In this document: one piece after another, positions 4,774 to 52,476 of the stretch
How the letters are laid out: every line of letters begins with the position of its first letter
How positions within the stretch are numbered: position 1 is the first letter of the stretch
Origin: Pseudomonadota bacterium
GTDB taxonomy: Bacteria > Pseudomonadota > Alphaproteobacteria > Rhodobacterales > Rhodobacteraceae
DNA length: 61,838 bases
Direction of reading: 5' to 3'
Assembly (NCBI GenBank): GCA_963205235.1
Contig: CAUJIP010000122.1
Location: 1-61,838, forward strand
Program-made: the position numbers and the translations under genes
The notes under the pieces: model-generated
What the model saw: only the letters and a program-made list of their open reading frames with translations
What the model was told of the DNA's origin: nothing
The model's database searches: none

Positions 4774-4840
4774 TCATCATGCCTTGGTCTGTGCCTGCAA
4801 GAAAGGCAGTTGCGGGGCGATGGAAGACAGCATAAGGTTT

Positions 4841-4856
4841 TTGCAACCGGTTGCAA
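4841..4856. promoter_or_regulatory. putative LacI-family operator in the divergent iol promoter
   Basis: TTGCAACCGGTTGCAA is a perfect 16-base palindrome with a central CG step, the usual form of LacI/GalR-family operators. It sits in the 106-base divergent region between iolD (minus) and the inositol dehydrogenase gene (plus), where one dimer could control both arms. The LacI-family gene ending this locus (8114-9124) is the obvious candidate ligand. Binding is inferred. Confidence 0.7.
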
Positions 4857-4879
4857 TGTGCAATCTGCGGGGGGCTGGT

Positions 4880-5995: not shown

Positions 5996-6002
5996 GGACC
6001 AA

Positions 6003-6893: not shown

Positions 6894-6902
6894 GGGGGCA
6901 TC

Positions 6903-24989: not shown

Positions 24990-24992
24990 GCC

Positions 24993-30830: not shown

Positions 30831-32135
30831 CTATGTTTCGCGCAAAGCCTGACGGAAGTAGTCGGTGAAGGGTTTGAGAAGATAGGAAAGTGGGGTGCGA
30901 TCCTCGGTTCGGATATAGCTTTCCACCGGCATGCCCGGAATGATCCCGGTGCCACTCAAGTCGGCAAGCGATTGAGCATCAATTGATATCTCGGCCCGAT
31001 AGTAACTGATGCCGCTGCGTTCATCGATCAGGGCATCGGCCGAGATCAGGACAACCGTCCCGTGCAACTCAGGCGTTGTGCGTGACGGAAGCGACGAGAA
31101 GACCAGGCGCACGTCCTTTCCGACTTTCACTTCATCAATATGGGTAACCGGAACCCTCGCCGCGACCAGCAACGGGCGGTCCTGGGGCACGATGAACATA
31201 AGCGTATCCGCAGGCCGAACGACGGATTGGGGCGTGGTCACCGAAAGACCAAGGACCAGACCCGATGTCGGGGCGCGGATATCAAGCCGCGCGATCTTTT
31301 CGGCAAGTGCAAGCTGGCGCTGGTTCAACTCGGTCTCTTTGGCCACGATATCACGAAGCTCGCTTTCGGCCTTTTCGCGCTGCTGGGTCGCAAGACCGGA
31401 AATCTCGATTTCAAGCTCGGTGATCCGACCGGCTGCCTCGGCCCGACTTGCCGTCAATTCGCCCTTCTGGCCCTGCAACTGCGCGATCTCGCGTTCAAGG
31501 GCCGAAATTCGCGGCGCCTCGGTCAGGCCTTCCGACAAAAGGCCCTGCTGCGTTTCAAGGTCGGCCTGACTAAGCGCGATCTGCCGATCCAGCGCCTGTT
31601 CTTCAGCGTCCAGTCCGGAAATCTGGCTTTGAATCTGCTCGATGCGGGTCTTGCGCTGATCGGTGACCTGCCGAAGCGCTTCGACATGTGTCGCAAACAG
31701 GTTGATCTGTCCCTGGATAAGTTCAGCGATCTTCTCGTTCGATTGCGCCTGCGCAAGAAGGTCCGGTGGAAAGATGATCTCTTCCGCGCCATCGCGCTCG
31801 GACTCAAGGCGCGCACGCCTTGCCGCCAGTTCAAGCAACTGGTTCTGGGCGATCACCAGTTCCGAACGAAGCTGATCGCCGTCAAGCCTGATCAGGATTT
31901 CGCCAGAGTCGACCGCTTCCCCTTCTTTCACCAGGATTTCTGCAACGATACCACCGTCAGGATGCTGAACTGTCTGACGGCTTTGCGACACCTCGACCTG
32001 ACCCTGGGCGACGATAGCCCCGGACAAGGTGGCCAGGACAGACCACGAGCCTAGGCCCCCGATCAGCAAGGCGAGAACAAGGTAACCCCAGAACAGAAGC
32101 CTGCCTGCGGATGGTGTGATGTCCTGATCGTTCAT
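30831..32135 (-). CDS. type I secretion periplasmic adaptor (HlyD/PrtE family)
   Basis: This 434-residue membrane fusion protein has one N-terminal transmembrane helix (residues ~12-35) and a lipoyl half-motif (HPDGGIVAEILVKEGEAVDS). A long coiled-coil hairpin spans roughly residues 80-290, rich in Gln/Glu/Ala heptads, and is followed by the second lipoyl half (LDIRAPTSGLVLGL) and a beta-barrel with the family ending GIIPGMPVESYIRTEDRT. It overlaps the ABC exporter stop (ATGA). With the exporter and a TolC-type channel (not in the window) it should export the RTX protein encoded divergently nearby. Confidence 0.93.
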   Translation of the reverse strand: MNDQDITPSAGRLLFWGYLVLALLIGGLGSWSVLATLSGAIVAQGQVEVSQSRQTVQHPDGGIVAEILVKEGEAVDSGEILIRLDGDQLRSELVIAQNQLLELAARRARLESERDGAEEIIFPPDLLAQAQSNEKIAELIQGQINLFATHVEALRQVTDQRKTRIEQIQSQISGLDAEEQALDRQIALSQADLETQQGLLSEGLTEAPRISALEREIAQLQGQKGELTASRAEAAGRITELEIEISGLATQQREKAESELRDIVAKETELNQRQLALAEKIARLDIRAPTSGLVLGLSVTTPQSVVRPADTLMFIVPQDRPLLVAARVPVTHIDEVKVGKDVRLVFSSLPSRTTPELHGTVVLISADALIDERSGISYYRAEISIDAQSLADLSGTGIIPGMPVESYIRTEDRTPLSYLLKPFTDYFRQALRET

Positions 32136-33868: not shown

Positions 33869-34004
33869 GGTCGCTCACCATGCTTTCGTCTAAATGGCCC
33901 GGCGGTGCCGCGGACGCGGCTTCGGCAAGTCTGAAGGACCCGCTGCCTGCGCGGCTGTGTACTGGGTGCCCAGGATGGGGCGGCAGGCGCTGCGAACGGC
34001 CCCG

Positions 34005-35360
34005 TCATCGTGAAAGCTCCAGCTCGACGCCGACACAGGCCCCACCGAAGCGCGAGCTTTCGATCCACATCCGTCCGTCGTACAGATCGACAACGTCGCG
34101 CGCTATGGCAAGACCCAATCCCGAACCGGGTGCCGTCTCGTCCAGCCGCTCACCCGGCCGGAACGCGCGTTCATGCATGTCGGCAGGCATGCCGGGGCCG
34201 TCATCTTCGATCCGGATGATCAGGCTCCGCTCCAGGATTGTCACCGAAATCAGCACCTGTGTCCGCGCCCATTTCGCCGCGTTGTCGATCAGGTTCCCAA
34301 GCACCTCTTCCAGATCCTCGGGGCCGCAGGCGACCATGACGTCAGGGCCCGGCACGTCGATGCCGAATTCCAGCAGCCGGTTGTCAGGCAGGCGCCGGAT
34401 CGCTGCCACAACCGACTCGATGGTCGGGCCGATCCTGGTCGCCGCATTGCCTCCCGCCCGCGATGCGGTCGCGCGGGCGCGCGCAAGCTGGTAGTCGATC
34501 TGACGGCGAATGATGTTGCAATGCTCCTGAATGATCGCGCCGCTTGGATCCTTGTCCGCAAGTCGGTCGGCTTCGATCTGAAGATGAGCAAGAGACGTCT
34601 TCAACGCATGCGCCAGATTCCCGGCCTGCAGTCGGGCGCGCTGGATCATGGCATCGTTCTGGTCCAGCAATCCATTCAAGTTGTCGATCAGCGGTCTGAC
34701 TTCCGTAGGCAGGTCTTGCGGCATCCGCTTTGCGTGCCCCTGCTTGATTGCCTGCAGAGCGGTGTCGATCCGTGCTAGGGGGCGCAGTGCAAAGGTGATC
34801 TGCGCGACCGCAGCAAGGATCAGGCCACAGGCAAGGCAGGCCATGGCAATCGCAAGAGAGCCCTCCAACGCGCCGACATAGCCCGCGATCAGCCGCAGAT
34901 CGATTGCAATCGCGACCCTTGCCAAAGGCCCCGAAGGCGTGCCGACAGGGACCATCCTTTCCAGCATCATCGCCTGACCAGACGGACCGGCGACTTCGGC
35001 CTCGCGGAAGGGCTGCCCGGCGTCCCCACTCAGGTCCAGCGGCAGGCGCGAACTGCCCAAGGATGCCGAAGCCAGCGTCGTCCCGTCTGACAGTGTCACC
35101 TGCCAGTAATATCCGGATCGGGCGTCGCTGAACCGGCTGTCACTTAACGGTGCACGCATGACGATGCCGTCAATCGGATCAATTTCGACAAGCTCGGCAA
35201 GTTCGGATGCGTGGTGGTCCAACTCGCTGGTGAATTCATGCAGGACACGAGAGCGCAAGAGCGATGAAAGCACAGCCCAACTGACAAGAAAGCCAAGCAA
35301 TATCCACAGGACCGACCCAAGCAGAAGCCGCAGGCGAAAGCTGCTTAAGGACAGGGTCAC
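34005..35360 (-). CDS. sensor histidine kinase
   Basis: This 451-residue two-transmembrane sensor has helices near residues 10-32 and ~168-190 enclosing a ~130-residue periplasmic domain. HAMP-like, HisKA and HATPase regions follow. The phosphoacceptor box is NLAHALKTSLAHL, and the ATP-binding motifs are NLIDNAAKWA (N-box), EDDGPGMP (G1) and GSGLGLAIA (G2). The residue five after His, normally proline, is serine here. GTG 35360 overlaps the response regulator stop (GTGA). It lies between that regulator and the secretion genes, so it probably senses an envelope signal controlling the RTX locus. The signal is unknown. Confidence 0.9.
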   Translation of the reverse strand: MTLSLSSFRLRLLLGSVLWILLGFLVSWAVLSSLLRSRVLHEFTSELDHHASELAELVEIDPIDGIVMRAPLSDSRFSDARSGYYWQVTLSDGTTLASASLGSSRLPLDLSGDAGQPFREAEVAGPSGQAMMLERMVPVGTPSGPLARVAIAIDLRLIAGYVGALEGSLAIAMACLACGLILAAVAQITFALRPLARIDTALQAIKQGHAKRMPQDLPTEVRPLIDNLNGLLDQNDAMIQRARLQAGNLAHALKTSLAHLQIEADRLADKDPSGAIIQEHCNIIRRQIDYQLARARATASRAGGNAATRIGPTIESVVAAIRRLPDNRLLEFGIDVPGPDVMVACGPEDLEEVLGNLIDNAAKWARTQVLISVTILERSLIIRIEDDGPGMPADMHERAFRPGERLDETAPGSGLGLAIARDVVDLYDGRMWIESSRFGGACVGVELELSR

Positions 35361-36007
35361 ACAGCACCCATTCGGTAGCCAAGGCCGCGCACAGTTCGAA
35401 TGGCGTCATGCCCAAGCTTTGCCCGCAGCCGCGCGACAAAGACTTCGATGGTGTTCGACCCCGGCGCTTCCGGCCTTCCATAGGCTTGCTCTGCCAGCTC
35501 GGCCTGCGAGATCACATGTGAGGGGCGCTGCATCAGGCAGGCCAGAACCTTCCATTCGTGCGCCGTAAGGTCGACTTCCTGTCCGTCAAGGTAGGTGGCT
35601 TTGGCCACCAGACTGATGGCCACCCGCCCATGCCGAAGCACCCTTTCCTCACTGACTGGCACCCGTCTTGTGATGGCGTGAAGACGCGCGACGACCTCGG
35701 CCGCATGAAACGGCTTGGCCATATAGTCATCTGCGCCAAGGTTCAGCCCCTCGACCCGCTGGCTCCATTCCCCACGCGCCGAAAGGATGATCACCGGCAT
35801 CGTGCGGTGCTCGGCACGCCATGTGCGCAGGACCTCAAGCCCCGTCATGCCAGGCAGACCCAGGTCAAGAATCACGGCGTCGTAGTCATTGGCCAAACCC
35901 AGCTCCAGTCCCGAGGGGCCGTCGAAGGCCGTGTCTGCGGCAAAACCGGCCGCAGTGACAGCCTCTACAAGGCCCTCGGCCAGGGCCATTTCGTCATCAA
36001 TGATCAA
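35357..36007 (-). CDS. OmpR/PhoB-family response regulator
   Basis: This ~216-residue regulator has a receiver domain (IIDDE acidic pair, phosphorylated Asp in DAVILDLGLPG, conserved Lys in AKPF) and a C-terminal winged helix ending in IRTVRGLGYRMG. The end given is the first TTG. Aligned to the family start MRILIxDDE, the true start should be three codons further upstream at 36016, where the codon is ATC. GGAGGG at 36024-36029 is seven bases from that ATC but 16 from the TTG. It is first in the minus-strand operon and faces the RTX gene across the regulatory region. It probably controls both. Confidence 0.88.
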   Translation of the reverse strand: MIIDDEMALAEGLVEAVTAAGFAADTAFDGPSGLELGLANDYDAVILDLGLPGMTGLEVLRTWRAEHRTMPVIILSARGEWSQRVEGLNLGADDYMAKPFHAAEVVARLHAITRRVPVSEERVLRHGRVAISLVAKATYLDGQEVDLTAHEWKVLACLMQRPSHVISQAELAEQAYGRPEAPGSNTIEVFVARLRAKLGHDAIRTVRGLGYRMGAV

Positions 36008-36109
36008 AATTCGGATTTCGAAGCCCTCCGATCAACACGCAATTCCGGGATACAGTTCGGTAAACGCATTATGATCAGCAGGGCAATGCTGTCCAGATGG
36101 CAGCGCTTG

Positions 36110-36131
36110 TTCAGGTTGTATTCAGATTCAG
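36110..36131. promoter_or_regulatory. putative response-regulator direct repeats
   Basis: TTCAG-N6-TTCAG (36110-36125) has an 11-base period, one helical turn, as preferred by OmpR/PhoB-family regulators. A third TTCAG lies at 36127-36131. The repeats lie in the divergent region between the response regulator and the RTX gene. Around them the DNA is unusually AT-rich (36121-36240), consistent with promoters. Binding by the local regulator is inferred. Confidence 0.55.
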
Positions 36132-36337
36132 TTAATGCGCAATTAAGGATGATAATTTTTGTTTATAAACAATGGATTAAAATGCCGCATCAGCGTAAGC
36201 GTATCTTATAACTTGGGTTTAGAAGCCAGTTTCTTGGCACTTACACCCTGAGTTGATTGTCGCCGCAACCGGCGCGTGGCTACCGGATGGTCAACCAACC
36301 ACCCTTCCATCGCAGCTTTCAACTTACGGGACACGAA

Positions 36338-39300
36338 ATGACCGCCATCACCGAAAACACCGGAACGTCGCAGAACTTGGCAAACGCACTGCTGGCGCCG
36401 AACTCCGGCATCGAGATCGTGCCGTCGTCGGTTGTCCTGAACGCCTCATCCGCTGCCGCGGTCGGAACCTACGACGGCTCCCTGGCACCTCTGGAAATCG
36501 GCGCGGGCATCGTGCTGACCACCGGGACAATGCCCGGCACGACGAACACCGACACCGGTTTTGGGCAGGACAACAACGCTGCCGGCAACGCCCTGATCGA
36601 CCAGGCGATCACCCCGGTGTTCAACACCGCCTCCTATGACGCCACGACGCTGACCTTCAACTTCACCGTGACCGACCCAACGGCCACATCCGTAAGCTTC
36701 AACGTCGTCTTCGGATCAGACGAATATCCGGAATGGGTCGATGCCTTCGTCGATGCGGGCGTTGTCTATGTGAATGGCGTCAACTACGCGGTGTTCAACC
36801 ACGACCCCAACAATCCGCTCAGCGTCATCAGCCCGAACACGCAGGCCGGATATTTTCAGGACAACGCCACCGGCACCTTGCCCATTGAGTATGATGGCGT
36901 CTCGAAGGTTCTGACCATCGTCGCGCCGATCATTCCGGGCGGACTCAATACGATCACGATCGGGGTCGCCGACTGTGGCGACCATATCCTTGACAGTGGT
37001 CTTTTCGTGTCAGGCCTGCAGGCGGGCACTCTGCCGGGGTCAGGCGTGGTGATCGGCAAGACGGATACCTCGACCAGCGGGAATGACACCGCCACGGGCT
37101 CCGACATGTCAGAGATGTTCGTCATGGGTGACGGTCTGGACCTGGTCTTCGCCGGAGGGGGTGATGACATTGTTTCGGGCGAGGCCGGGGATGACAGCCT
37201 TTTTGGCGGATCGGGCGACGATGCGTTGATGGGGGGTGACGGCAACGACGACCTGAACGGCGGGGCAGGGGACGACGTGGCGCAGTATGCCGGGGCAAGC
37301 ACGGACTATTCGGTCAATTACGATGCAGCTTCCGGCACCTACGCCGTCGCGGCCACCGCAGCCCCGGTATCGGCGGAAGGAACGGATACGCTGACCGACA
37401 TCGAGACTTTGACCTTCAGCGACGGGACCTTCTATCTGACGCAGACCGGCCTGACCAAGGTCGCTCCGGTTGCAACTGGGGGCAACGCAGCCGGTACGGC
37501 TGTCATCAGCGGCATCGCAGCCGAAGGCAATGTCCTGACAGTCAGCATTTCGGACGCTGACGGTGCCCCGGCCGACAGCGCGATTGCCTTCGACTGGCAG
37601 GTCTCGCTGGATAACGGGGTGACCTGGTCCTCGACCGGCGCTACGGGCAGCGGGTACACGGTGCAGGCAACCGATGCCGGGGCGATGTTCCGCGTCCTTG
37701 CCAGCTATACCGATGCAGCGGGCGGCGCCGAACTGGTGACCAGCCTGCCCAAGCTGGTTCCGGCCCCGGCGGTGAACACCCTGGTGGTCGACCTGATTGC
37801 CCTTGATGCTCCGGTCGGGTCCACCACCATGAACCCTTTGACCACCCTTGTCGCCAGAGCCGTCGAACTGGGCATGTCCCCCAATGCTGCCGAGGCGGCA
37901 ATCAAGGCCGGTCTCGGCATCGATCCGGGCGTCAATCTGCTGTCCTTCGATGCCTATGCCGCCGTTGTCGCCAACCCGTCCGATGCTGTGGCGCTTGGGA
38001 TTGAAACAATCACCGTGGAGGTTGCAGTCCTGACGTCGCTCAGCAACGACGACACGGGTGCAAAACTTGCGCTTGCCATCATCGAAGCCGCCGCCTCCGG
38101 CGTTGTGCTGGATCTGACCGATCCGGATGTCTTGTCGGCCTTGGTCGGCGTTCCGGCTGTCATTGACCCCGTGACCGGCAAATACCCGGAACCGATGGGC
38201 GAAATCTATGATCGCATCATAAATCTGTCCGAGGCGGCAAGCTTGGCCGACATCGAGAAGGAATGGCAGGATCTGCTGTCCATTCAGGACCAGATTTCGT
38301 CAACGTCGATCTCGGATCTTTCGGTGCATATCAATCAGGCCCCGACCGGTCTTCCGCTTGGCGCGTTGATCGGTGCGCAGGGTCAAGAGACGACGATTGC
38401 CGAGACGGACTTGCTGAACGGCCTGACCGACCCGGAAGGCGCGGCCCTGGCGGTGTCGGATATGGTCGCAGACCAACCCGGCACAGTCACCCACAATGCA
38501 GACGGCAGCTGGTCCTTTGTCGCCGCGCCGGGGTATTCCGGTCCAGTTGAGCTCAGCTATACCGTGGTTGACCCGCAGGGGGCGTCCCTGACGGTGACCA
38601 AGCTTCTGATCATCGAACCGGCGGCCATCGTGGTCAATACCGCACCGGTGGTCAGTGGCCCGGTCGAGGTGTCGCTGGCCGAAGGTGGCTATGTGCAGGT
38701 CGACCCGCTTGCCAACGCGACCGACGGCAACAACGATCCGCTTTCCGTGGTGCAGCCCGTCACGCTTACTGCGGGCTTTGCCTATGATGCCACCTCGGGC
38801 CAGATGATCTTTGATGCCGCTGATCCGGCCTTTGACTCGCTGGCCGAGGGCGAGACGCTGGTCGTCAGCCAGGACTATGAGGTGACTGATGGAACCCTCA
38901 CAACTGCCGCGTCGATTGCCGTCACCATCACCGGCACCAATGATGCGGCGGTGATCGACGGGGCGAACACCGGCACCGTGACGGAAGACCGCGCCCTGGT
39001 TGCCAGCGGTGTGCTGACAGTCACCGACGTTGACGCAGGAGAAGCCGCGTTTGTCGCCGGGACCCTGGCGGGAACCTATGGCTCTGCCACCCTGGCCGCT
39101 GACGGGACCTGGACCTACACGCTGGATACCGGCGCCGCCGACTTGGCGACGCTCAACTCTGGTCAGACCCTGACAGATACCATTGTCGTGCAATCGCTTG
39201 ACGGGACGACGGCCACCTTGTCGATCACGATCAACGGTCTGGACGAAGCCTTGGGTGGTCCTGCCATCTATGGCACCGTTGTCGGCGATGCCATCACCGG

Positions 39301-41056
39301 CACAACCGGCGCTGACGTGATCTTCGGGCTGGACGGCAAGGACACGATCTACGGGCTGGAAGGAAACGACATCATCGACGGCGGGGCCGGGGCCGATCTG
39401 ATCGACGCAGGCGCTGGCGACGACACGATCTTCATCGGCAGCGGCCTGATCGAAAGCATGGCCGACATCTCGAAGAAGATTCAGTTCGAAAGCGTCATGG
39501 GCGGAACCGGCTATGATACGGTTGTCGTTGACGGCCCCAGCACCAACTATGTGATCACGACGATGATCGTTTCGCCGACGGTCGTGCAGCGGACCATCAC
39601 CAACCTGACCTCGGGCAAGCACAGCACGATGACCGGTGTCGAGGCGTTCGAATTCTCGGACGGGGTGCGCGTCGAACTCGAGCCCGCCAACCAGGCCCCG
39701 ACTGGCACGGCCACGGCCACCCTGACCGGAACTGAAGACAGCAGCCGTCTGATCACCCTGGCCGAACTGGTCGAGGGCTTCACGGACAGCAATGGCGACG
39801 TGCTGACCGTCTCGGGATTGACGACCAGCGCGGGTACGGTCGTCGACAATCTGGACGGCACCTGGACGTTTACCCCCGACGCCGATTTCAACGGCCCCGT
39901 GACGCTGACCTATCAGGTCGAAGACGGGAAGGGCGGCAGCATCGCAGGCACGAACACGTTGACCATCGCCGCAGTGAACGACGCCGCCAACATCGCCGGT
40001 CAGGCCACCGGCACGGTGACCGAAGATGGTGTCCTGCAGGCAAGCGGCACCTTGACGATCAGCGACGTTGATACCGGCGAAGCGGCCTTTGTCGCAGGTG
40101 TGCTGGTGGGCACCTACGGCTCTGCTACCCTTACCGCCGCCGGGGACTGGATCTATTCGCTCGACAATGCGTCGACGGCGGTGCAGGCCCTCGGGGGTGG
40201 GGTGGCAGTGCAGGATACCCTTACGGTCACCGCCCTGGACGGCACGACCTCGACTCTGGTGATCACGATCAACGGCGCGGCAGAAAGCGGTGTCGCCGGA
40301 ACCACCTTGACCGGAACGGCCATCGCGAACTGGCTTGCGGGCGGCAACGGCAACGATACGCTTCTTGGCCTGGGCGGCAACGACACGCTGTTCGGCAACG
40401 GCGGTGATGACATCCTGCGGGGTGGTATCGGTGCCGACCGGATGACCGGCGGTACTGGCAACGACTCCTACTATGTCGACTCCAAGTACGACGTCGTTTC
40501 CGAAGCCGCGGGCGAGGGCACGGACACCGTGCTTACGACGCTTGTCAAATACACCTTGGGCAATGACGTTGAAAACCTGACCTATCTTGGTGCGCTGAAA
40601 TTCACCGGCATCGGCAATGCGCTGGACAATCAGATTACCGGTGGCACGGGCGCAGACGTGCTTTTCGGCGGGGCAGGCAACGACAATCTGAACGGCGCGC
40701 AAGGACAGGATTCCCTGTACGGCGGGGCAGGAAGCGACATTTTGACCGGAGGTGCAGGCGCAGACTTCTTCATTTTCAAGACCTCCGCGGAATCGTCCGA
40801 CACGATCACTGACTTTGAACACCTGAATGATCGTATCGACCTGCACCTTATCGATTCCGATGCGACCTGGGCGGGCAATCAGGCCTTCAATTTCATCGGT
40901 GACGCCGACTTTGGCATGAAAGCTGGCCAGTTGCGCTTTGATGTCGCATCGGACGGTGTCCATGTTCAGGGCGACACGAACGGCGATGGCGTTGCGGACT
41001 TTGACCTCTTCCTCGAAGGGGTTACGACACTCACCTCGGCAGACTTCATTCTGTAA
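36338..41056 (+). CDS. giant RTX/VCBS/cadherin-like secreted protein with choice-of-anchor L domain
   Basis: This 1572-residue protein has no Sec signal. Order of parts by residue: choice-of-anchor L-type domain ~15-235 (IEIVPSSV, GIVLTTG, VFGSDEYPEWVDAF); RTX calcium repeats ~264-316 (GGxGxDxLxGG); an Ig-like and linker region; cadherin-like unit ~666-760; VCBS repeat ~865-968; RTX block ~982-1034; cadherin-like unit ~1118-1215; second VCBS ~1215-1315; RTX blocks ~1325-1380 and ~1428-1478. A serralysin-type C-terminal domain ends in DFIL, a typical type I secretion signal. The divergent ABC exporter and adaptor should secrete it. No protease motif (HExxH) was seen, so adhesion or matrix formation is more likely than proteolysis. 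ATG 36338 is the chosen start. Confidence 0.92.
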   Translation: MTAITENTGTSQNLANALLAPNSGIEIVPSSVVLNASSAAAVGTYDGSLAPLEIGAGIVLTTGTMPGTTNTDTGFGQDNNAAGNALIDQAITPVFNTASYDATTLTFNFTVTDPTATSVSFNVVFGSDEYPEWVDAFVDAGVVYVNGVNYAVFNHDPNNPLSVISPNTQAGYFQDNATGTLPIEYDGVSKVLTIVAPIIPGGLNTITIGVADCGDHILDSGLFVSGLQAGTLPGSGVVIGKTDTSTSGNDTATGSDMSEMFVMGDGLDLVFAGGGDDIVSGEAGDDSLFGGSGDDALMGGDGNDDLNGGAGDDVAQYAGASTDYSVNYDAASGTYAVAATAAPVSAEGTDTLTDIETLTFSDGTFYLTQTGLTKVAPVATGGNAAGTAVISGIAAEGNVLTVSISDADGAPADSAIAFDWQVSLDNGVTWSSTGATGSGYTVQATDAGAMFRVLASYTDAAGGAELVTSLPKLVPAPAVNTLVVDLIALDAPVGSTTMNPLTTLVARAVELGMSPNAAEAAIKAGLGIDPGVNLLSFDAYAAVVANPSDAVALGIETITVEVAVLTSLSNDDTGAKLALAIIEAAASGVVLDLTDPDVLSALVGVPAVIDPVTGKYPEPMGEIYDRIINLSEAASLADIEKEWQDLLSIQDQISSTSISDLSVHINQAPTGLPLGALIGAQGQETTIAETDLLNGLTDPEGAALAVSDMVADQPGTVTHNADGSWSFVAAPGYSGPVELSYTVVDPQGASLTVTKLLIIEPAAIVVNTAPVVSGPVEVSLAEGGYVQVDPLANATDGNNDPLSVVQPVTLTAGFAYDATSGQMIFDAADPAFDSLAEGETLVVSQDYEVTDGTLTTAASIAVTITGTNDAAVIDGANTGTVTEDRALVASGVLTVTDVDAGEAAFVAGTLAGTYGSATLAADGTWTYTLDTGAADLATLNSGQTLTDTIVVQSLDGTTATLSITINGLDEALGGPAIYGTVVGDAITGTTGADVIFGLDGKDTIYGLEGNDIIDGGAGADLIDAGAGDDTIFIGSGLIESMADISKKIQFESVMGGTGYDTVVVDGPSTNYVITTMIVSPTVVQRTITNLTSGKHSTMTGVEAFEFSDGVRVELEPANQAPTGTATATLTGTEDSSRLITLAELVEGFTDSNGDVLTVSGLTTSAGTVVDNLDGTWTFTPDADFNGPVTLTYQVEDGKGGSIAGTNTLTIAAVNDAANIAGQATGTVTEDGVLQASGTLTISDVDTGEAAFVAGVLVGTYGSATLTAAGDWIYSLDNASTAVQALGGGVAVQDTLTVTALDGTTSTLVITINGAAESGVAGTTLTGTAIANWLAGGNGNDTLLGLGGNDTLFGNGGDDILRGGIGADRMTGGTGNDSYYVDSKYDVVSEAAGEGTDTVLTTLVKYTLGNDVENLTYLGALKFTGIGNALDNQITGGTGADVLFGGAGNDNLNGAQGQDSLYGGAGSDILTGGAGADFFIFKTSAESSDTITDFEHLNDRIDLHLIDSDATWAGNQAFNFIGDADFGMKAGQLRFDVASDGVHVQGDTNGDGVADFDLFLEGVTTLTSADFIL

Positions 41057-41140: not shown

Positions 41141-41523
41141 ACAGCCTGCCGCACGTCGACGGGCCGCGCAAAATGCTCGGCTGAAAAAAACCCCGCCGAG
41201 GAAATCGCCGAGAGCGTTGCAATCGGAACTTGAGTTAACATTCCCCTAACGTCCACAACCAAGCCCTTGATTTCATGGGCCCAGAATCTCTGTCCCGCGT
41301 GGACACCCACCCGGCCAGCGCCCGAAGACGGCCCGAGGGCCGACCCCCATCCCCTTCCCGGCCCCGCTACCACCCCCGACACGGTCAAGCTGCGGAACTG
41401 GCTCGGGGCCAGGCAGGTGCTGACCTATCCCCCGCCCTCAAGACCCTTGACCTCGACGGCCCCACTGCCGAAGTCTATAGCCATGTGTCAGCAGACCAGT
41501 CCTTCAGCGAAGAGGTCCGGCCA

Positions 41524-43950
41524 ATGGCCGAAACAGTTCTATCTCACGAAAAGCTCCGGGTTGTCTGCAGCCCGTCCGCTCTGCCGTTCGAGACGACCGC
41601 CGATCTTGCTCCTCTGGACGGACCGGCTGGGCAGGACATCGCTGTCGAGGCCATTCGACTGTCGGCAGAAATGCAGCACCCGCGCTTCAATCTTTTTGTC
41701 TTCGGACCCGAGGGGTCGGGGCGGCATTCGACCGTTCTGCGGATCCTGCAAGAGGTTGCCACCGCGCGCCAAGTTCCGAATGACTGGGTCTACGTCAACA
41801 ACTTCGCTGAGCCGGACAAGCCCATGGCCATCTGCCTTCCGCCCGGCGAGGCGCCGAGGGTTCGCGATGTGGTTGCGGGCCTGATCGAGGATCTGGCCAC
41901 CCGGATTCCGGCCGTCCTGGTATCGGAGGACTGCCAGACCCGCCGCACTGCCATCGAACAGGAATTCTCGATGCGACACGAGGCTGCCTTCAACGCCCTG
42001 GTTGACGGTGCGCGGCAGCGTCACGTGGCGATCATGCGGACGCCGATGGGGTTTTCCTTGGCGCCGATACAGGATGGCGAGGTTTTGAAGGCCGAGGTCA
42101 TGGCCGCCATGCCCGAGGCCGACCGCGTCAGGATCGAAGCCGACATCGAGGCTATCCATGAGGAACTGGAGGATTTCCTGGGATCGCTGCCCGAACTGGG
42201 CCGCGAGCAGCGAGAGGCCATGGCAGCGCTGAACGCGCGCGTGGCAGAAAGCGCCGTGAAGTCGGCGATGTCGCGCATGAACCGGAGTTTCCGGCAGATC
42301 CCGGTGCTGCAACCGTTTTTCGAGGCATTGCGGAAGGATCTGATCCTGAACGCAGACCTGTTCCTGGCCTGGGAGAAAGCCAGCGCCGAGGGGCCTTTTC
42401 CCCGCGGGACCGCCGCCCTGCACGACGACCCCCGGTTTCACCGCTATGCCGTCAACGTCATGGTGACGCATCAGAACGGATCGGGCGCCCCGGTCATCGT
42501 CGAGACGATGCCGACGCTGGCCAATCTGACGGGCCGCATCGACTATATGTCGCAACAGGGGGCTCTGGTCACCGATTTCACCTTGCTGAAGGCGGGCGCA
42601 CTGCATCGGGCGAACGGTGGGTTCCTGGTGCTGGATGCCAGACGCATCCTGACCGAGCCTTTCGCCTGGGATGCGCTCAAGCGCAGCCTGGAGACCAAGG
42701 CGATCCAGATCACCACGGCGGCCGACCGACTTGGCCTGATCGCAACCACGACGATGGAACCCCAGCCGATTCCGTTGGCGGTGCGGATCGTTCTGGTCGG
42801 CGACCAGGACCTGCTTTTGCTTCTGTCAGAGTTGGACCCCGATTTCGGCCAGTTCTTCCGCGTAGCTGCGGAATTCGCAGACGACATGACCCGCGATGCG
42901 GGCTCGATCGAACTGTTCGCCCGGGTTCTTGCGACGGTTGGCGCACAGGAAGGCCTGCGCCCGGTCGCGCGCGATGGCGTGGCCGCCCTGATCGATGCAT
43001 CGTCCCGCGCGGCAGAGGACCAGCGCAAGCTGTGCCTGCGGACCGGCGAGGTGCTGGACCTGCTGCGCGAGGCCGATCACCGTGCCGCCAATGACGCATC
43101 AAGCGCCATCACCGGAGCGCATGTCGCCGCCGTCATTGCCGCGCGCGACCGCAGGCTGGGCCGGACCCGCGAACGCCTGATGGAGATGGTCCGGGACGAC
43201 AGGATTCTTATTGCGACCACCGGCAGCGTGGTCGGGCAGATCAACGGTTTGACGGTGGCCGAGATCGGCGAACTGCGGTTCGGAATGCCGACCCGGATCA
43301 CCGCAAGGGTCCGTATGGGGTCGGGTCGCGTCGTCGATATCGAACGCGAGACCAAACTGGGCGGGCCGATCCATTCCAAGGCGGTCCTTATCCTGTCGGG
43401 TTTCCTGAGCGCGCGATATGCGGCGGATGTGCCGCTGTCGCTTTGGGCGTCACTGGTCTTTGAACAGAGTTATGGTCGCGTCGAAGGGGATAGCGCGTCG
43501 CTGGCAGAGCTGTGCGCGCTGATGTCGGCGCTGGCCGAAGTGCCCATATCGCAGTCCTATGCGGTGACGGGGTCGGTCAACCAGATGGGCGATGTGCAGC
43601 CGGTCGGCGGCATCAACGAAAAGATCGAAGGGTTCTTCCGGATCTGTGCCGCGAAGGGCCTGACCGGCCGACAAGGCGTGCTGATCCCGCGTGCGAACCT
43701 GGCGAACCTGATGCTGCGGGACGACGTGGTTCAGGCAGTGGCCGCCGGCCAGTTCCAGATCCACGCCGTTTCGCATGTCGATGAGGCGATTGCCCAGCTG
43801 ACGGGTCTGCCTGCAGGTCGGCGATCCGTGAACGGCGAGTTCGAGACGGGCTCGATCAACGCCAATATCGAGGTACGGTTGCTTGATTTCGCAGACGCGC
43901 GGTTCGGGCATGCCGATGGTCAATCTGACCCCGAGCAACCCGATGGCTGA
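41524..43950 (+). CDS. Lon-family ATP-dependent protease (AAA_32/LonB-like, YcbZ type)
   Basis: This 808-residue protein has an AAA-type ATPase region with a modified Walker A (GPEGSGRHS, residues 61-69), a helical insertion, and a C-terminal Lon protease domain. The catalytic dyad is visible as Ser657 (EGDSAS) and Lys700 (GGINEKIEG), 43 residues apart as in Lon. The Walker A lysine is arginine, as I recall is common in this Lon-like branch. ATG 41524 is chosen because the family starts just before the substrate domain (LRVVCSPSALPFETT). Upstream in-frame sequence is Pro/Arg-rich and looks non-coding. It overlaps the permease start, implying one operon. Confidence 0.87.
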   Translation: MAETVLSHEKLRVVCSPSALPFETTADLAPLDGPAGQDIAVEAIRLSAEMQHPRFNLFVFGPEGSGRHSTVLRILQEVATARQVPNDWVYVNNFAEPDKPMAICLPPGEAPRVRDVVAGLIEDLATRIPAVLVSEDCQTRRTAIEQEFSMRHEAAFNALVDGARQRHVAIMRTPMGFSLAPIQDGEVLKAEVMAAMPEADRVRIEADIEAIHEELEDFLGSLPELGREQREAMAALNARVAESAVKSAMSRMNRSFRQIPVLQPFFEALRKDLILNADLFLAWEKASAEGPFPRGTAALHDDPRFHRYAVNVMVTHQNGSGAPVIVETMPTLANLTGRIDYMSQQGALVTDFTLLKAGALHRANGGFLVLDARRILTEPFAWDALKRSLETKAIQITTAADRLGLIATTTMEPQPIPLAVRIVLVGDQDLLLLLSELDPDFGQFFRVAAEFADDMTRDAGSIELFARVLATVGAQEGLRPVARDGVAALIDASSRAAEDQRKLCLRTGEVLDLLREADHRAANDASSAITGAHVAAVIAARDRRLGRTRERLMEMVRDDRILIATTGSVVGQINGLTVAEIGELRFGMPTRITARVRMGSGRVVDIERETKLGGPIHSKAVLILSGFLSARYAADVPLSLWASLVFEQSYGRVEGDSASLAELCALMSALAEVPISQSYAVTGSVNQMGDVQPVGGINEKIEGFFRICAAKGLTGRQGVLIPRANLANLMLRDDVVQAVAAGQFQIHAVSHVDEAIAQLTGLPAGRRSVNGEFETGSINANIEVRLLDFADARFGHADGQSDPEQPDG

Positions 43951-45352: not shown

Positions 45353-47074
45353 ATGCCCGACTTGATCGCAGCAACGGCAGCACGGGCGGGGGGTGCCGCT
45401 CCGCTGCCGACCGGATGGGCCGCGGCACGGGCGCGACTGGACGGATTGCCCGGAGGCGGGCTGAACATCGCGCATGAGGCGGTCGACCGGCACGTGACGG
45501 CGGGCCATGGCGCGCAGGCCGCGCTGATCTGGCTGGGGCGCGAGGGGCAGCGGCGGGTGCTGACTTACGGTGATCTGGCAGCCCAAGCTGCGCGCTTTGC
45601 CCATGTGCTGCAAGCCCACGGAATCGGTCCGGGCGCGCGGTTGTTTCTTCTGTCGGACCGCGTCCCCGAGTTGTACGCCGTCACCTTGGGCGCATTGAAG
45701 GCCGGCGTGGTTGTCAGCCCGCTCTTTGCCGCTTTCGGCCCCGACCCGGTGCGGGCGCGCATGGAGATCGGCGGGGCTTCCGTTCTGGTCACGACCGAAG
45801 CCCAGTACCGTCGCAAGATCGCAGCCTGGCGCGACCAGATGCCTGGGCTGAAGCTGGTCCTGATCATCGGCGACGGGGCAACCGAAGGCTGCGTGGCGCT
45901 TGGCCCGGCGATGGCGGCGGCCCCGGACACCTTCGACACCCACCCGACGCAAGCAGAGGACATGGCGCTTCTGCACTTCACCTCGGGCACCACCGGCCTG
46001 CCGAAGGGGGTCGTGCATGTGCACGAAGCGGTCGTCGCCCATGCCGAGACCGGGCGCCTTGCGTTGGACCTGCAGCCCGGCGACATCTACTGGTGCACCG
46101 CCGATCCCGGCTGGGTGACGGGGATGAGCTATGGCATCATCTCGCCGCTTTGCAACCGCGTGACCATGGTAGTGGATGAGGCCGAGTTCGACCTTGAACG
46201 TTGGTATTCGATCCTGGAACGCGAGAAGGTTCAGGTCTGGTATACCGCACCGACTGCGATCCGCATGATGATGCGCTCAGGCGATCAGGCGGCACAGGGG
46301 CACGACTTCGGCGCGTTGCGTTTCCTGGCCTCGGTGGGCGAGCCGTTGAATGCCGAATGCGTGCTTTGGGGGCAGCGCGTCATCGGACTGCCGTTCCATG
46401 ACAACTGGTGGCAGTCGGAAACCGGCGGGATCATGATCGCCAACACCGCCGACATGGACATCAAGCCCGGTGCGATGGGCAAGCCCTTGCCGGGGATCGA
46501 GGCGGGGATCGTCACCCGCGAGGGGGATACGGTCACCGAACAGCCCGACGGCCAGATCGGCGAACTGGCGTTGCGGCCCGGTTGGCCCTCGATGATGCGG
46601 GCCTATCTGGGACAGCCGGAGCGGTATGCGAAGTGTTTCGCGGGCGGCTGGTATCTGACCGGCGACCTCGCGATGCGCGACAGCGACGGCTATTTCTGGT
46701 TCGTCGGGCGGGCGGATGACCTGATCAAGTCCTCGGGCCACCTGATCGGCCCGTTCGAGGTGGAAAGCGCGCTGATCGAACACCCCGCCGTGGCCGAGGC
46801 CGCAGTGATCGGCATCCCGGACGAAACGGCGGGCGAGGTGGTCAAGGCCTTTGTGACGCTCAAGGCCGGGTTCCAGGCGGATGAGGCGCTGGAGCGCGAG
46901 TTGCGCGGTCATGCGCGGAAACGCCTTGGTCCCGCCGTCGCCCCGCGTGAGATCGTGTTCCGTGATACCTTACCCCGGACGCGATCAGGCAAGATCATGC
47001 GGCGGCTTCTGCGTGCACGAGAGCTTGGGCTGCCGGAGGGCGACCTGTCCACGCTGGAAGGGGATTCGAGATGA
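45353..47074 (+). CDS. AMP-forming acyl-CoA (acetyl-CoA-like) synthetase
   Basis: This 573-residue ANL-superfamily ligase activates a carboxylic acid to an acyl-AMP and then to a thioester. Visible motifs are the phosphate loop [60 protein letters not shown] and the C-terminal catalytic lysine [11 protein letters not shown]. It most resembles acetyl/propionyl-CoA synthetases but is shorter (573 against ~650), lacking some N-terminal sequence. AGGGAGGGGAAG lies directly before ATG 45353. Its stop overlaps the dehydrogenase start (ATGA), tying it to the E1-E2-ACP genes. Whether the acceptor is CoA or the operon's ACP is open. Confidence 0.87.
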
Positions 47075-49062
47075 CCAAGGTCAAGCTGGACCACGCCCAT
47101 GCCCGCGATCTTCTGCAAGGCATGATCCGCATCCGCCGGTTCGAGGAGAAGTGCTACGAGCTTTACACGCAGGAAAAGATCCGCGGCTTTCTGCATCTAT
47201 ACGACGGTGAGGAGGCGGTGGCCGTGGGGGTTTCCGCCGCGCTGGAACCGCGCGACCGGGTGGTATCGACCTACCGCGAGCATGGCCATGCGCTGGCGCG
47301 CGGCCTGTCCATGGAATCGGCGTTGGCCGAGATGTACGGCAAGGCCACCGGCTGCGCGGGCGGACGTGGCGGGTCGATGCACCTGTTCGACGCCGAGACC
47401 AACCTTTACGGCGGCAATGCCATCGTGGGTGGCGGGCTGCCCCTGGCCGTGGGTCTGGGCCTTGGTGACCGGATGCAGGGGCAGGACCGGGTGACGGTCT
47501 GCTTCTTCGGGGACGGCGCGCTGGCCGAGGGCGAGTTCCACGAGGCGATGAACCTTGCCGCGCTTTGGAAGCTGCCGGTCGTCTTCGTGCTGGAGAACAA
47601 CCTGTACGCCATGGGATCGGCGGTGGCCCGGGTGCAGGCCAATACCGATTTCGTCCCCCGCGCCGCCAGCTACGGGATGCCTGCCGAAAGCGTGGACGGC
47701 AATGACGTGGTGGCGGTCGAGGCGGCGGCGCGGCGGCTGGTCGAGGCGGCGCGGGCGGGCGAGGGTCCGCAGTTCCTGGAATGCCGGACCTACCGCACGC
47801 GGCCGCATTCGATGTTCGACGCCGAGAAATACCGCGACAAGGCCGAGGTCGCGGAATGGCGCAAACGCTCGCCCATCGCCCGCTTCCAGTCCTGGCTTCT
47901 GGACAACGGGCTGATGCATCAGGCGGAAGTCGATGCCATCGAGGCCGAGGTCGAGGCGCAACTGAGAAACGCCGTCGCCGCCTGCGAACAGGCGCCATGG
48001 GAGCCGGTCGCGGACCTGACCCGCCACGTCGTGGCCGAGACGCGGCCCGTGCCGCCTGTGGTGCCCGCGCCCGACCGGATGCTGGACAGCACCTACCGCG
48101 ACTGCTGCCGCGTGGCCATCACCGAGGCGATGCTGCGCGATCCCCGCGTCTTCATGATGGGCGAGGATATCGGAGCCTATGGCGGCTGCTATGCGGTGTC
48201 GATGGGGCTGTTGAAAGAGTTCGGCCCCGACCGCATCCGCGATACGCCGCTGTCGGAATCCGCCTTCACCGGCGCGGGGATCGGCGCGGCGCTGGTCGGC
48301 ATGCGACCCATCGTCGAGATCATGACGGTCAACTTCTCGCTTCTGGCGCTGGACCAGATCCTGAATACCGCCGCCACGATCCGGCACATGTCCTCGGGCC
48401 AGTTCGGGGTGCCGCTGGTTATCCGCATGGCGACCGGCGCGGGTCGGCAACTGGCCGCGCAGCATTCCCATTCGCTTGAGGCGTTCTTTGCCCATATTCC
48501 GGGCATCCGCGTGCTGGCCCCCGCCACGCTGGAGGACGCGCGGGGGATGCTGGCCGTCGCGCTGGAGGACCCCGACCCGGTGATCATCCTTGAGCATGTC
48601 ATGCTTTACAACATGACCGGGCAGATCGCCGCCAACGCGGGCGCGGTGGATATCGACCGTGCCGTGATCCGCCGTCCGGGCCGCGACGTGACGCTGGTGG
48701 CGTGGTCCTACTGCCTGTGGAAGGCGCTGGAGGCCGCCGAGGCGCTGGCCAAGGACGGGATCGAGGCCGAGGTGATCGACCTGCGCTCGCTTCGTCCGCT
48801 GGATGAGGCGACGCTGACGGCCTCGATCACCCGCACCCGCCGCGCGGTCGTGGTGGATGAGGGCTGGCGCACCGGCTCGCTGTCCGCCGAGATCGCCGCG
48901 CGCGTGCAGGAGGCCTGTTTCTGGCACCTGGATGCCCCGATAGCCCGCGTCTGTGCGGCAGAAGTGCCGGTCCCCTATCCGAAGCACCTTGAAACCGCCG
49001 CCCTGCCGCAGGTGGCCGATATTTTAGCCGCCGTGAAAGCCCTGCCGGGGATTGCGCGATGA
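47071..49062 (+). CDS. fused 2-oxoacid (pyruvate) dehydrogenase E1 alpha-beta
   Basis: This 663-residue protein joins E1 alpha (residues 1 to ~325) and E1 beta (~335 to 663) in one chain. The alpha half has [32 protein letters not shown] and the thiamine-diphosphate motif [15 protein letters not shown] starting at residue 147 and ending in ENN. It also has [14 protein letters not shown], like the phosphorylation-loop region of E1 alpha. The beta half has [29 protein letters not shown] and [12 protein letters not shown]. It should decarboxylate a 2-oxoacid and acylate the lipoyl group of the next gene's product. Typical alphaproteobacterial enzymes keep alpha and beta separate. Both junctions in the operon overlap by four bases. 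Confidence 0.92.
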
Positions 49063-50252
49063 CGATCTTCCCCATGCCCTCGCTTGGCGCTGACATGGAA
49101 GCGGGCAAGCTGGTCGAGTGGCTGGTCAAGCCCGGCGACCGGGTGCAGAAGGGCGATGTCGTCGCGGTGGTCGAGACCCAGAAGGGCGCCATCGAGATCG
49201 AGATATTCGAGGCGGGCGAGATTGCCGAACTGATCGCCGAGGTCGGCCAGACCTTGCCCGTCGCTGCCCCCCTTGCTCGGCTGGGTGATGCGGCAGAGGC
49301 CACGGGGTCCATTAGGGCCACCACGCCCGCCCCAGAACCTGTGATCGCCCCCGTTCCACCTGTGATGCAAAAGCCCCTTGTGCAAGCGCCAACACCTGCC
49401 CGACCCGTAACCGACAACGTGCTTGCCTCGCCCGCAGCGCGGGCGCGGGCCAGCAAGCTTGGGGTGGCGCTTGCCGGGATCGTGGGTAGCGGCCCGGGCG
49501 GCGCGGTCCTGCTGGCGGATGTCGACCGCGTGGCGGCGGTCCTGCCTGCAACCGCACCAACGGCAGCAAAGGGTAGAACCGGCCTGGACATGGCCGAGAT
49601 GCGCCGCGCCATTTCTGCCGCGATGACCCGGTCCAAACGCGAAATCCCGCATTACTACCTGACGCATGAGATCGACCTGCAAGCAGCGCAAGACCGGGTG
49701 ACCGCCATCAACGCCACACGCATGCCGGACCAACGTATTCTGGTGGGGGCACTGCTGATCCGCGCTACGGTCCTGGCATTGGCAAAGGTGCCGGACCTGA
49801 ACGGCCGGTTCGAGGCCGACACCTTCACGCCGTCCCCGGTCGTGCATTGCGGCCTCGCCATCGCCCTGCGTGGCGGTGGGCTGATCGCACCGGCGATCCT
49901 GAATACGCAAACCCTGAACGTCGACCAGATCATGGATGCGATGCGCGACCTCGTCGCCCGCACCCGCAGCGGGCGCCTTCGCAACAGCGAGATCACACAA
50001 GGCACGATCACCATCTCTTCCCTCGGCGAAACCGGCGTCGATGCCCTGACAGGCGTGATCTACCCGCCACAGTTGGCGCTGGTTGGTTTTGGCACCCCAC
50101 GCCTCAAACCCGTGGTCCGGGACGGCGGCATCAAGGCCCGTGTTTGCGTGACCGCCACTCTGGCCGCCGACCACCGGGTCAGCGACGGCCGCCGCGGCGC
50201 GCAATTCCTGTCTGAAATCGCCCGCTTGCTAGAGGAGCCCGAGTCCCTATGA
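49059..50252 (+). CDS. dihydrolipoamide acyltransferase (E2)
   Basis: This 397-residue E2 has one lipoyl domain (residues 1-77; lipoylated Lys42 in [11 protein letters not shown], Gln replacing the usual Asp or Ser before Lys), a Pro-rich linker, a peripheral-subunit binding domain (~120-157, [14 protein letters not shown]), and a catalytic core. The core holds the conserved His and Asp of the CAT-like active site (DHRVSDGR near residue 370). It normally moves an acyl group from lipoamide to CoA. No lipoamide dehydrogenase (E3) gene follows. An acyl carrier protein gene starts at the overlapping ATGA, suggesting an alternative acyl acceptor. Confidence 0.92.
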
Positions 50253-50497
50253 CTGACCTACGCGCCGCTTTTCTGGAGGAACTGATGGCAGTCGCCCCTG
50301 ATCTCGATGCCGCGACAATTGCAGATGACGACCATCTGCAGGAAGATCTGGGCTTGGACTCGATGGATTTCCTCAACCTCGTCGCAAGGCTCCACCGCCG
50401 CTTCGGCCTGCCGATCCCCGAAGCCGATTACCCGCGCCTTGCAACCGCCAGGAAAGCCGCGGCCTACCTTGCCGAGAAACTGGCCGATCAGTCGTGA
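50249..50497 (+). CDS. acyl carrier protein
   Basis: This 82-residue four-helix ACP has the phosphopantetheine attachment motif DLGLDSMDF with Ser38, and acidic helix 2. It is not expected to be the housekeeping AcpP, because it is embedded at the end of the synthetase-E1-E2 operon rather than beside fabF. Its start overlaps the E2 stop by four bases. It probably receives an acyl group from the synthetase or the E2, which is inference. No acyltransferase, ketosynthase or thioesterase accompanies it here. Confidence 0.9.
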   Translation: MTDLRAAFLEELMAVAPDLDAATIADDDHLQEDLGLDSMDFLNLVARLHRRFGLPIPEADYPRLATARKAAAYLAEKLADQS

Positions 50498-51103: not shown

Positions 51104-51150
51104 TTGGGCCTATGCGACCTTGCGCAATCCAATGCATCCAGTTACCTTTC

Positions 51151-51162
51151 CTTTGTGGGGTA
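51151..51162. promoter_or_regulatory. arm-type integrase site, left end
   Basis: CTTTGTGGGGTA recurs exactly at the right end of the element (57527-57538). It lies just before the integrase start codon and may also affect integrase expression. Confidence 0.58.
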
Positions 51163-51180
51163 GTATGTAGGATAGACAGG

Positions 51181-52476
51181 ATGCCAAGGGTTGCCGAGGA
51201 ACTAACTGCGCTAGACGTAAAACGCTTGATCCATCCGGGCGGCAAGCGGAACGTGCTGTTTTCGGTCGGCGGGGTTCCTGGACTTCACTTGCAGGTCACC
51301 CCAAAGGACGGGCGGTCTTGGGTCCTGCGCACCACTGTTGGCAGCTTGCGCCGTGATATCGGCTTGGGCAGCTTTCCCGGCGTGACACTCTCTCAGGCAC
51401 GCGACAAGGCCCGCGACGCCCGCGCCATGATCGAGGGCGGTATTGACCCGGTGGAGCAACGCAAGGCCGCCAAGGCGGCTCTGGTGGCCGCGCAGCGCCG
51501 TGGGATGACCTTTGCCAAGGCGGTGGAGAATTACCTTGGCGCAAAGCTGGACGCCTTCAAAAACGCCAAGCATCGCCAGCAATGGGAAAACACGCTTGCC
51601 GCCCATGCTATCCCTGATCTGGGAAAAATGCTGGTGCAGGATATCGCAACCCAAGACGTTTTGCGGGTTTTGCAACCGCTCTGGACCGACCGCACGGAAA
51701 CCGCTTCCCGACTGCGCGGTCGGATTGAGGCGGTCCTTTCATGGGCCACGGTTGCAGGCCACCGGACAGGCGATAACCCGGCGCGCTGGGCGGGCAACCT
51801 GAAAGAATTGCTTCCTGCCCCGTCAAAGGTGGCGACAGAGGGCAATCACCCCGCCTTGGCCTTGGATGATGCGCCCCGCTGGTTTGCCGCCTTGCAGACC
51901 CGTGAAGGGTTCGGCGCGCGGGCGCTGGAGTTTCTGGCCCTGACTGCCACCCGGTCGCAAGAGGTTCGGGGGGCGCTTTGGGATGAAATTGATCTGGACA
52001 AGGCGCTTTGGATTATCCCCGGCGCGCGCATGAAGATGGGCAAGGAACATCGCATTCCCCTTTCCGCCCGCGCCGTGGCGTTGTTGAAGGCGCTTCCCCG
52101 GTTGAAGGATAACCCGCTGGTGTTTCCGGCAGCACGGGGCGGGATGCTTAGCGACATGACCCTTTCGGCCACCATGAAGCGGATGCACGAAAGCGCCGTC
52201 GCAGAAGGCGGGGCAGGGTTCATCGACCGCACGTCCAAGCGCCCCGCCGTGCCACACGGAATGAGAAGCTGTTTCAGGGATTGGGCGGCTGAAAAGACCA
52301 ACTTCCCCGGCGAGATGGCAGAAGTCGCGCTGGCCCATCGTATTAGCAACGCGGTCGAGGCCAGCTATCGGCGCGGCGACCAGATCGAAAAGCGCCGTGC
52401 AATGATGGCGGCTTGGGCGGATTTCATGGCCGATTCGCGGGGCGGTCCGACTGTGATTTCATTGCGCCGAGGCTAA
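51181..52476 (+). CDS. P4-type tyrosine recombinase/integrase
   Basis: This 431-residue integrase has an N-terminal DUF4102 arm-binding domain (ALDVKRLIHPGGKRNVLFSV), a core-binding domain, and a C-terminal catalytic domain. The domain shows the Arg of ATRSQEVRGALW, HGMRSCFRDWAAE and HRISNAVEASYRRGD with the final tyrosine. It recombines at the 3' end of tRNA genes, here tRNA-Ser. ATG 51181 starts the arm-binding domain; in-frame upstream sequence overlaps the arm site and is not used. It reads inward from the left end of the element. Confidence 0.93.
   Translation: MPRVAEELTALDVKRLIHPGGKRNVLFSVGGVPGLHLQVTPKDGRSWVLRTTVGSLRRDIGLGSFPGVTLSQARDKARDARAMIEGGIDPVEQRKAAKAALVAAQRRGMTFAKAVENYLGAKLDAFKNAKHRQQWENTLAAHAIPDLGKMLVQDIATQDVLRVLQPLWTDRTETASRLRGRIEAVLSWATVAGHRTGDNPARWAGNLKELLPAPSKVATEGNHPALALDDAPRWFAALQTREGFGARALEFLALTATRSQEVRGALWDEIDLDKALWIIPGARMKMGKEHRIPLSARAVALLKALPRLKDNPLVFPAARGGMLSDMTLSATMKRMHESAVAEGGAGFIDRTSKRPAVPHGMRSCFRDWAAEKTNFPGEMAEVALAHRISNAVEASYRRGDQIEKRRAMMAAWADFMADSRGGPTVISLRRG

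Follow-up and report, generated by a model that had tools for sequence, protein, structure and literature searches.

The stretch of DNA that we analyzed (the window) is a contig of 61,838 nucleotides (CAUJIP010000122.1, assembly GCA_963205235.1) from a member of the Rhodobacteraceae. It contains a compact operon of four genes, which we call the cassette: an AMP-forming acetate--CoA (coenzyme A) ligase (ACS), a pyruvate dehydrogenase (PDH) E1, an E2, and a small acyl carrier protein (ACP), in that order (Table 1). Each gene overlaps the next at an ATGA (positions 47071, 49059, and 50249). An earlier note, made from the sequence alone, had described the gene order, the ATGA junctions, the fusion of the two E1 parts, and Ser38 of the ACP, and the coordinates and the matches to Pfam and NCBIfam confirm all of these.

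Table 1. The genes of the cassette and the box upstream of it, in window coordinates.
Feature	Position	Strand	Description
FNR-like box ATGACCTGCATCAA	45233-45246	+	120 bases 5' of the ACS start; 8/10 consensus positions
ACS, AMP-forming acetate--CoA ligase	45353-47074	+	573 aa; Pfam AMP-binding and AMP-binding_C
Fused PDH E1 alpha-beta	47071-49062	+	663 aa; Pfam E1_dh, Transket_pyr, Transketolase_C
E2	49059-50252	+	397 aa; one lipoyl domain (Lys42), subunit-binding domain 121-155, acyltransferase domain (H372/D376)
Dedicated ACP	50249-50497	+	82 aa; Ser38 in DSMD; helix II neutral to basic

ACS scores 845 bits against the NCBIfam model for acetate--CoA ligase (PRK04319, curated cut-off 729). 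The single E1 chain exceeds the cut-offs for both the alpha subunit of PDH (TIGR03182, PDH_E1_alph_y: 425.8 versus 393.85 bits) and the PDH E1 beta subfamily (PRK09212: 398.8 versus 321 bits). It scores far below the cut-offs of the NCBIfam transketolase models, and by these models it is not a ketose-phosphate transketolase-type E1. It does pass Pfam Transketolase_N weakly (27.8 versus 22 bits), beside E1_dh at 287.6 bits. In E2, the Pfam domains Biotin_lipoyl, E3_binding, and 2-oxoacid_dh are all above cut-off, and the ACP matches PP-binding at 44.1 bits (cut-off 20.8).

The cassette is well conserved. We searched one genome per species (84,980 species) with E1 as the only query and obtained 394 loci, of which we kept the best 80. 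These lean towards close relatives, and two bins that carry two copies of the cassette (L005/L030 and L008/L010) contribute two loci each. For each gene, our script took the start codon closest to where the start of the window's protein aligns. ACS is directly 5' of E1 in 76 of the 80 loci. The four without an adjoining ACS are L030, which is cut by the end of the contig; L051, whose contig begins 930 bases 5' of E1 and where neither ACS nor ACP adjoins E1-E2; and L028 and L041, where a phosphoenolpyruvate (PEP) synthase gene replaces ACS before E1 (by Pfam in L028 and by similarity in L041). These PEP synthase genes (L028:2860-5283 and L041:309-2777) overlap E1, which starts at 5280 and 2774, by 4 bases. 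The ACP, which was not in the query, lies directly after E2 in 68 of the 80 loci. Another 11 stop within E2 or short of it, which leaves 69 that can be assessed, and the ACP follows E2 in 68 of these. The earlier note had proposed looking for the same four genes in other genomes, and they are there. Overlaps of 4 bases are found at 65/68 E2-ACP junctions, 65/76 ACS-E1 junctions, and 38/79 E1-E2 junctions. Among the loci that have the ACP are many from Rhodobacteraceae, along with Halomonas, Ectothiorhodospiraceae, one Actinomycetota bin, and one Acidobacteria bin. Celeribacter neptunius (L074) and Alloyangia pacifica (L057) are examples of cultured environmental carriers. Mirror-tree correlations range from 0.77 to 0.89 (n = 66), values that still contain the species history and that we do not take as proof.

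The ACP is also tied to E1 across whole genomes. In a sample of 198 genomes from the family (the window's own included), 22 have a cassette E1 (at least 973 bits), and all 22 carry the ACP (E ≤ 1e-12). Another 13 genomes have a more distant E1 (506-580 bits), and none of the 13 has the ACP at 1e-12. At 1e-3, some match to the ACP appears in 57 genomes, but apart from the 23 strong ones, these matches (34 genomes) reach no more than about 31 bits. We also laid out 30 ACP loci from 398 genomes of the phylum. E1 and E2 adjoin the ACP at 13 of the 13 loci that score at least 40 bits (one of which is the window), versus 1 of 17 below 40 bits. The idea in the earlier note that the ACP is a partner of E1-E2 or of the synthetase is strongly supported by this co-occurrence and by the gene order.

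Some genomes have split the cassette. In G062, and likewise in G600 (the genome of L051), ACS-ACP and E1-E2 are on separate contigs, and G125 has the ACP and ACS only, with no cassette E1. At L028 and L041, E1, E2, and ACP are together and ACS is elsewhere in the genome, with no ACP within 4.7 kb around it. So the ACP can be found with either of the acetyl-forming enzymes, as would be expected of a shared acceptor, and in these arrangements it resembles a hub that serves both sources of acetyl groups.

The cassette is sporadic: the family sample includes just one more genome from the window's genus (G191), and it lacks both E1 and ACP. Against plasmid records, the ACP query gave 24 matches, of which we examined 11. 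Eight of these are annotated with ACS-E1-E2-ACP (from Burkholderia, Sulfitobacter, Rhodococcus, two Leisingera, Methylocystis, Tropicibacter, and Cupriavidus). One further Leisingera record has E2 in pieces and the ACP, with the remainder cut by the start of the record, and in two the region has no annotation. On the plasmids from Burkholderia, Cupriavidus, Rhodococcus, and Methylocystis, separate genes encode E1 alpha and E1 beta. As side observations, a genome labelled Altererythrobacter (L009) has an E1 that is 88% identical to the window's, which reflects either horizontal transfer or a misplaced contig; and in the window, a tyrosine integrase (51112-52476) lies about 600 bases 3' of the ACP, with a Prim-Pol gene next, at 53505; this is possibly the edge of a mobile element.

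The ACP has a core of invariant residues. A16, P17, D37, S38, D40, E58, and Y61 are present in 69/69 sequences, and D18 is present in 68/69. The net charge of helix II averages +0.41 (n = 69, range -2 to +2) and is +2 in the window, versus -5 in the genome's own AcpP, which is our only comparator for this charge. Against the equivalog model for the AcpP of fatty acid synthesis (acyl_carrier, TIGR00517), the window's ACP scores just 38.2 bits, below the cut-off of 70.45. By these measures of its sequence, the cassette ACP is different from the ACP of fatty acid synthesis.

E2 retains its catalytic and lipoyl-bearing residues: Lys42 in 65/65 letters (4 of 69 rows are gapped), and H372 and D376, of the H-x-x-x-D-G motif of the acyltransferase, in 68/69. 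The earlier note viewed the ETQK of the lipoyl motif as having a non-standard residue. In fact, glutamine is the usual residue before the lysine in this family (VETQKG in the window; Q in 59/66 letters from cassette E2s, versus D in 30/30 letters from housekeeping E2s), and A, S, and V also occur at this position among ten chosen relatives. The subunit-binding domain passes PF02817, but position 149 is arginine in 1/70 cassette E2s versus 31/31 housekeeping E2s, and position 152 is basic in 1/70 versus 31/31. The domain's net charge averages -0.59 in the cassette versus +2.19 in housekeeping E2s; a few odd values (e.g., +11) from broken or mis-started frames are retained in these counts. Position 128 is mostly basic in cassette E2s (R in 60 and K in 7 of 69). 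As housekeeping E2s we used the 30 matches with the best scores, which include the genome's own E2p, and added its own E2o; these 31 therefore lean towards canonical ones. According to a review, basic residues of this domain are needed to bind the peripheral subunits (PMC6270654). Because two such positions have been lost, the docking of E3, or of E1, on the cassette E2 must, as far as its sequence tells, be different; E3 may still be used.

The earlier note stressed that there is no E3 (lipoamide dehydrogenase). This is right for the operon, which has no lpd gene, and indeed no E3 was found among the 28 proteins of the window that we scanned with Pfam. It is not right for the genome, which has two lipoamide dehydrogenases above cut-off on other contigs (C77 and C130). 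The genome also has housekeeping genes: contig C30 carries a relative of E1 beta as well as an E2, and contig C64 a relative of E1 alpha. Among the best 80 of the 394 loci, only L023 has a match to lpd near the cassette at 1e-20, and this is just 30% identical.

Several observations point to low oxygen. The consensus for FNR is TTGAT-N4-ATCAA. FNR-like boxes with at least 8 of its 10 positions lie within 250 bases 5' of ACS at 56/72 loci, as compared to 80/436 control upstream regions from the same loci. (With random windows as the control, the rates were 74/97 loci and 12%, but we prefer the stricter control.) The window's own box is weak evidence if taken alone, as the whole window contains 9 matches of this quality versus 3.5 expected. 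We looked for a sigma-70-like promoter in the region of this box and found none. The genome also encodes, at L235, a member of the Crp family whose cysteines have the CxxC-x7-CxxC spacing seen in FNR-type sensors. At 81 loci, the window included, the genes that flank the cassette include those for an ABC-transporter ATPase (15 loci), PEP synthase (13), a P-type ATPase (11), polyhydroxybutyrate (PHB) synthase (9), a response regulator (9), a Lon-like protease (6), FtsH (5), a CBS protein (4), and a universal-stress-like protein (4). One representative of each cluster was confirmed with Pfam, except for the ABC and stress clusters, and these counts stand without a control. Passages in PMC10888616 list ppsA and phaC2 as targets of FixK2 in Bradyrhizobium, and the cassette resembles the low-oxygen regulons of FixK2 and FnrL in that ppsA-like genes are found at 13/81 loci and phaC-like genes at 9/81. 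Given the boxes and these neighbors, it is likely that the cassette is used, and perhaps induced, at low oxygen. The main text of a paper on the low-oxygen (lxa) locus of Burkholderia (PMC6127331) mentions none of acetyl-CoA, pyruvate, a carrier, or acsA. Separately, we note a LonB-like protease gene (41275-43950) 5' of the window's cassette; its relatives lie near the cassette in L042, L045, L046, L054, L072, L169, and L177.

Our best explanation of these sequences is that the cassette makes acetyl-ACP. This is the likeliest reading, but we would not quite give it an even chance. E1-E2 would draw acetyl groups from pyruvate via thiamin diphosphate and the lipoyl group, and ACS would draw them from acetate via acetyl-AMP. 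We infer that the acceptor is the ACP: the thiol of a 4'-phosphopantetheine arm on Ser38 would replace or supplement CoA. The acetyl-ACP, which is presumably used as such, would form a pool of acetyl groups that is separate from acetyl-CoA, and a housekeeping E3 or some other oxidant would reoxidize the dihydrolipoyl group. As described in PMC8421416, the CoA arm enters the E2 cube of E. coli from the inside, and the entrance is ~30-40 Å; this ought to be wide enough for an ACP. In what we consulted of PMC8421416 and PMC8626477, the residues of E2 that contact CoA are not listed. In this reading, the cassette would be an accessory module that is mobile and probably serves at low oxygen, with one dedicated ACP supplied by both of the acetyl-forming enzymes. 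We are more doubtful of the fullest version, in which a widespread and horizontally moved module of primary metabolism is controlled by FNR, loads acetyl groups from pyruvate as well as from acetate onto one private ACP as a low-oxygen pool apart from acetyl-CoA, and has an E2 that lacks the usual docking of E3.

There are several points on the other side. First, ACS is above the cut-off for acetate--CoA ligases, and E2 retains the D-H-R and the Asp of E2s that use CoA. With these intact, the bypass of acetyl-CoA suggested in the earlier note is at most a possibility, even though its partner role for the ACP stands. Second, the ACP is not fused to E2 in any of 68 cases. Third, the excess of FNR-like boxes shrinks as the loci are thinned by the identity of E1, from 37/50 (at 90%) to 9/19 (at 80%) and 3/8 (at 72%), and the last of these is indistinguishable from the control. 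Fourth, the flanking genes vary, and the commonest cluster, a plain ABC-transporter ATPase (15/81), does not point to a consumer of acetyl-ACP. Finally, FnrL of Rhodobacter capsulatus favors the ordinary decarboxylation of pyruvate to acetyl-CoA, according to PMC9603517.

In the main rival, the cassette is an ordinary second PDH that makes acetyl-CoA at low oxygen with an E3 borrowed from the housekeeping complexes, ACS recovers acetate as acetyl-CoA, and the ACP is an accessory (a structural or regulatory subunit or a scaffold). In its favor, the catalytic residues of E2 are conserved, ACS and E1 exceed the cut-offs for acetate--CoA ligase and PDH, and both lpd (two copies) and housekeeping PDH genes are present in the genome. 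But if the ACP were just a scaffold, it is not obvious why D37, S38, and D40 would be present in 69/69 sequences, which argues for a loaded arm. Nor would this explain why the ACP accompanies ACS apart from E1-E2 in three genomes (G062, G125, and G600), or why the docking domain of E2 lacks the basic residues that 31/31 housekeeping E2s have kept. All told, we think that this rival is unlikely.

It is less likely still that ACS alone loads the ACP, with acetate converted to acetyl-ACP in the manner of DltA and DltC, while the neighboring E1-E2 makes acetyl-CoA. ACS-ACP pairs without an adjoining cassette E1-E2 are found at L165, L166, and L227, and a gene for an MBOAT acyltransferase is near those in L166 and L227. 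However, L028 and L041 have retained E1-E2-ACP although their ACS lies elsewhere, with 4.7 kb around it that contain no ACP, and of all the junctions, E2-ACP keeps its overlap most consistently (65/68).

Another alternative is that the ACP provides octanoyl groups for the lipoylation of the cassette E2. Octanoyl-ACP is the usual precursor of the lipoyl group, and the ACP gene is coupled to that of E2. However, LipB and the enzymes of fatty acid synthesis recognize an acidic helix II, and because helix II of this ACP is not acidic, a role in lipoylation seems very unlikely; also, the ACP pairs with ACS in the absence of E2. That the ACP belongs to an unrelated pathway and is merely co-transcribed would suit the wide variation of the flanking genes, but it is hardly credible given the co-occurrence in 22/22 genomes and the nearly fixed overlap.

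While examining relatives of the cassette, we noticed a second and more distant E1 alpha-beta pair at 4 of the 116 loci that we searched for it (L165:1308-3629, L166:1106-3325, L227:6053-8268, and L050:2-1834). These E1s share about 32% identity with that of the cassette and are over 80% identical among themselves, and they adjoin ACS-ACP or a full cassette. By eye, those in L165, L166, and L227 have a twin-arginine-like start (L050 is cut). Pfam's TAT_signal matches in L165 only, at 19.7 bits, which is below its cut-off of 22.7, and not in L227. Small genes beside this pair resemble cytochromes by eye, with CxxC(H), and the two that we scanned have no match in Pfam. From its sequence, the second E1 pair is perhaps an exported enzyme that oxidizes pyruvate. 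Also, 3 of the 116 loci (L166:4694-7195, L227:2137-4550, and L050:3311-5718) have a gene for an MBOAT acyltransferase near ACS and ACP, identified by Pfam in L166 and L227 and by similarity in L050, along with a conserved companion gene that has no match in Pfam. Elsewhere in the window, a very large protein with RTX/cadherin repeats (30831-41056) lies beside HlyD and ABC-transporter genes and is perhaps an adhesin-like protein secreted by a type I system. GFO/IDH/MocA dehydrogenases with xylose-isomerase-like neighbors recur at 4628-8036 and 23931-26162, as in the catabolism of inositol-type sugars.

In the examples we viewed, public annotation describes the genes as acsA, pdhA, an E2, and an acyl carrier protein, and nothing further. 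We did not find a description of this operon among the open-licence papers that our literature searches listed, which is weak evidence of absence. Its parts have been described before, as has one precedent, but among those papers we found no account of the combination with an acetate ligase, of its spread, or of its likely low-oxygen setting. If the ACP is the acceptor, then this would be, to our knowledge, the first 2-oxoacid dehydrogenase of primary metabolism that loads a carrier protein instead of CoA. It could also explain why some bacteria keep an additional PDH that lacks a dedicated E3.

How does the cassette compare to known systems? It shares with the alpha2-beta2 PDH complex the domain content of E1 and E2, the lipoyl lysine, and the catalytic His and Asp. 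Unlike that complex, the cassette's operon lacks E3 and includes an ACP, and two basic subunit-binding positions have been lost. The Dlt set includes a ligase, a carrier, and an MBOAT. DltA/DltC/DltB/DltD is analogous in having an AMP-forming ligase with a carrier, and an MBOAT with its companion gene is nearby in L050, L166, and L227. In contrast, the cassette's ligase scores as an acetate--CoA ligase, and there is no MBOAT beside the cassette among the 28 window proteins that were scanned. The precedent is in the Qnc, Nap, and Scl systems. NapB/NapD, from naphthyridinomycin synthesis, is an E1-like/E2-like system comparable to Qnc, and in the original work on Nap and Qnc the group was reportedly transferred from the lipoyl group to the ACP. 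As summarized in PMC6335953, QncN/QncL/QncM direct both how a C2 glycolicacyl unit for quinocarcin is made and how it is attached, and SclQ1-4 are proposed to act in the same way for scleric acid. Those systems serve non-ribosomal peptide assembly from ketose phosphates, whereas the cassette has a PDH-alpha E1 by NCBIfam and an added acetate--CoA ligase, and no peptide synthetase is among the 28 window proteins that were scanned. The likeness, which is drawn from descriptions and not from sequences, is that an E1-like part that uses thiamin diphosphate, an E2-like part with lipoyl and acyltransferase domains, and a discrete ACP are encoded together, as they are in the cassette.

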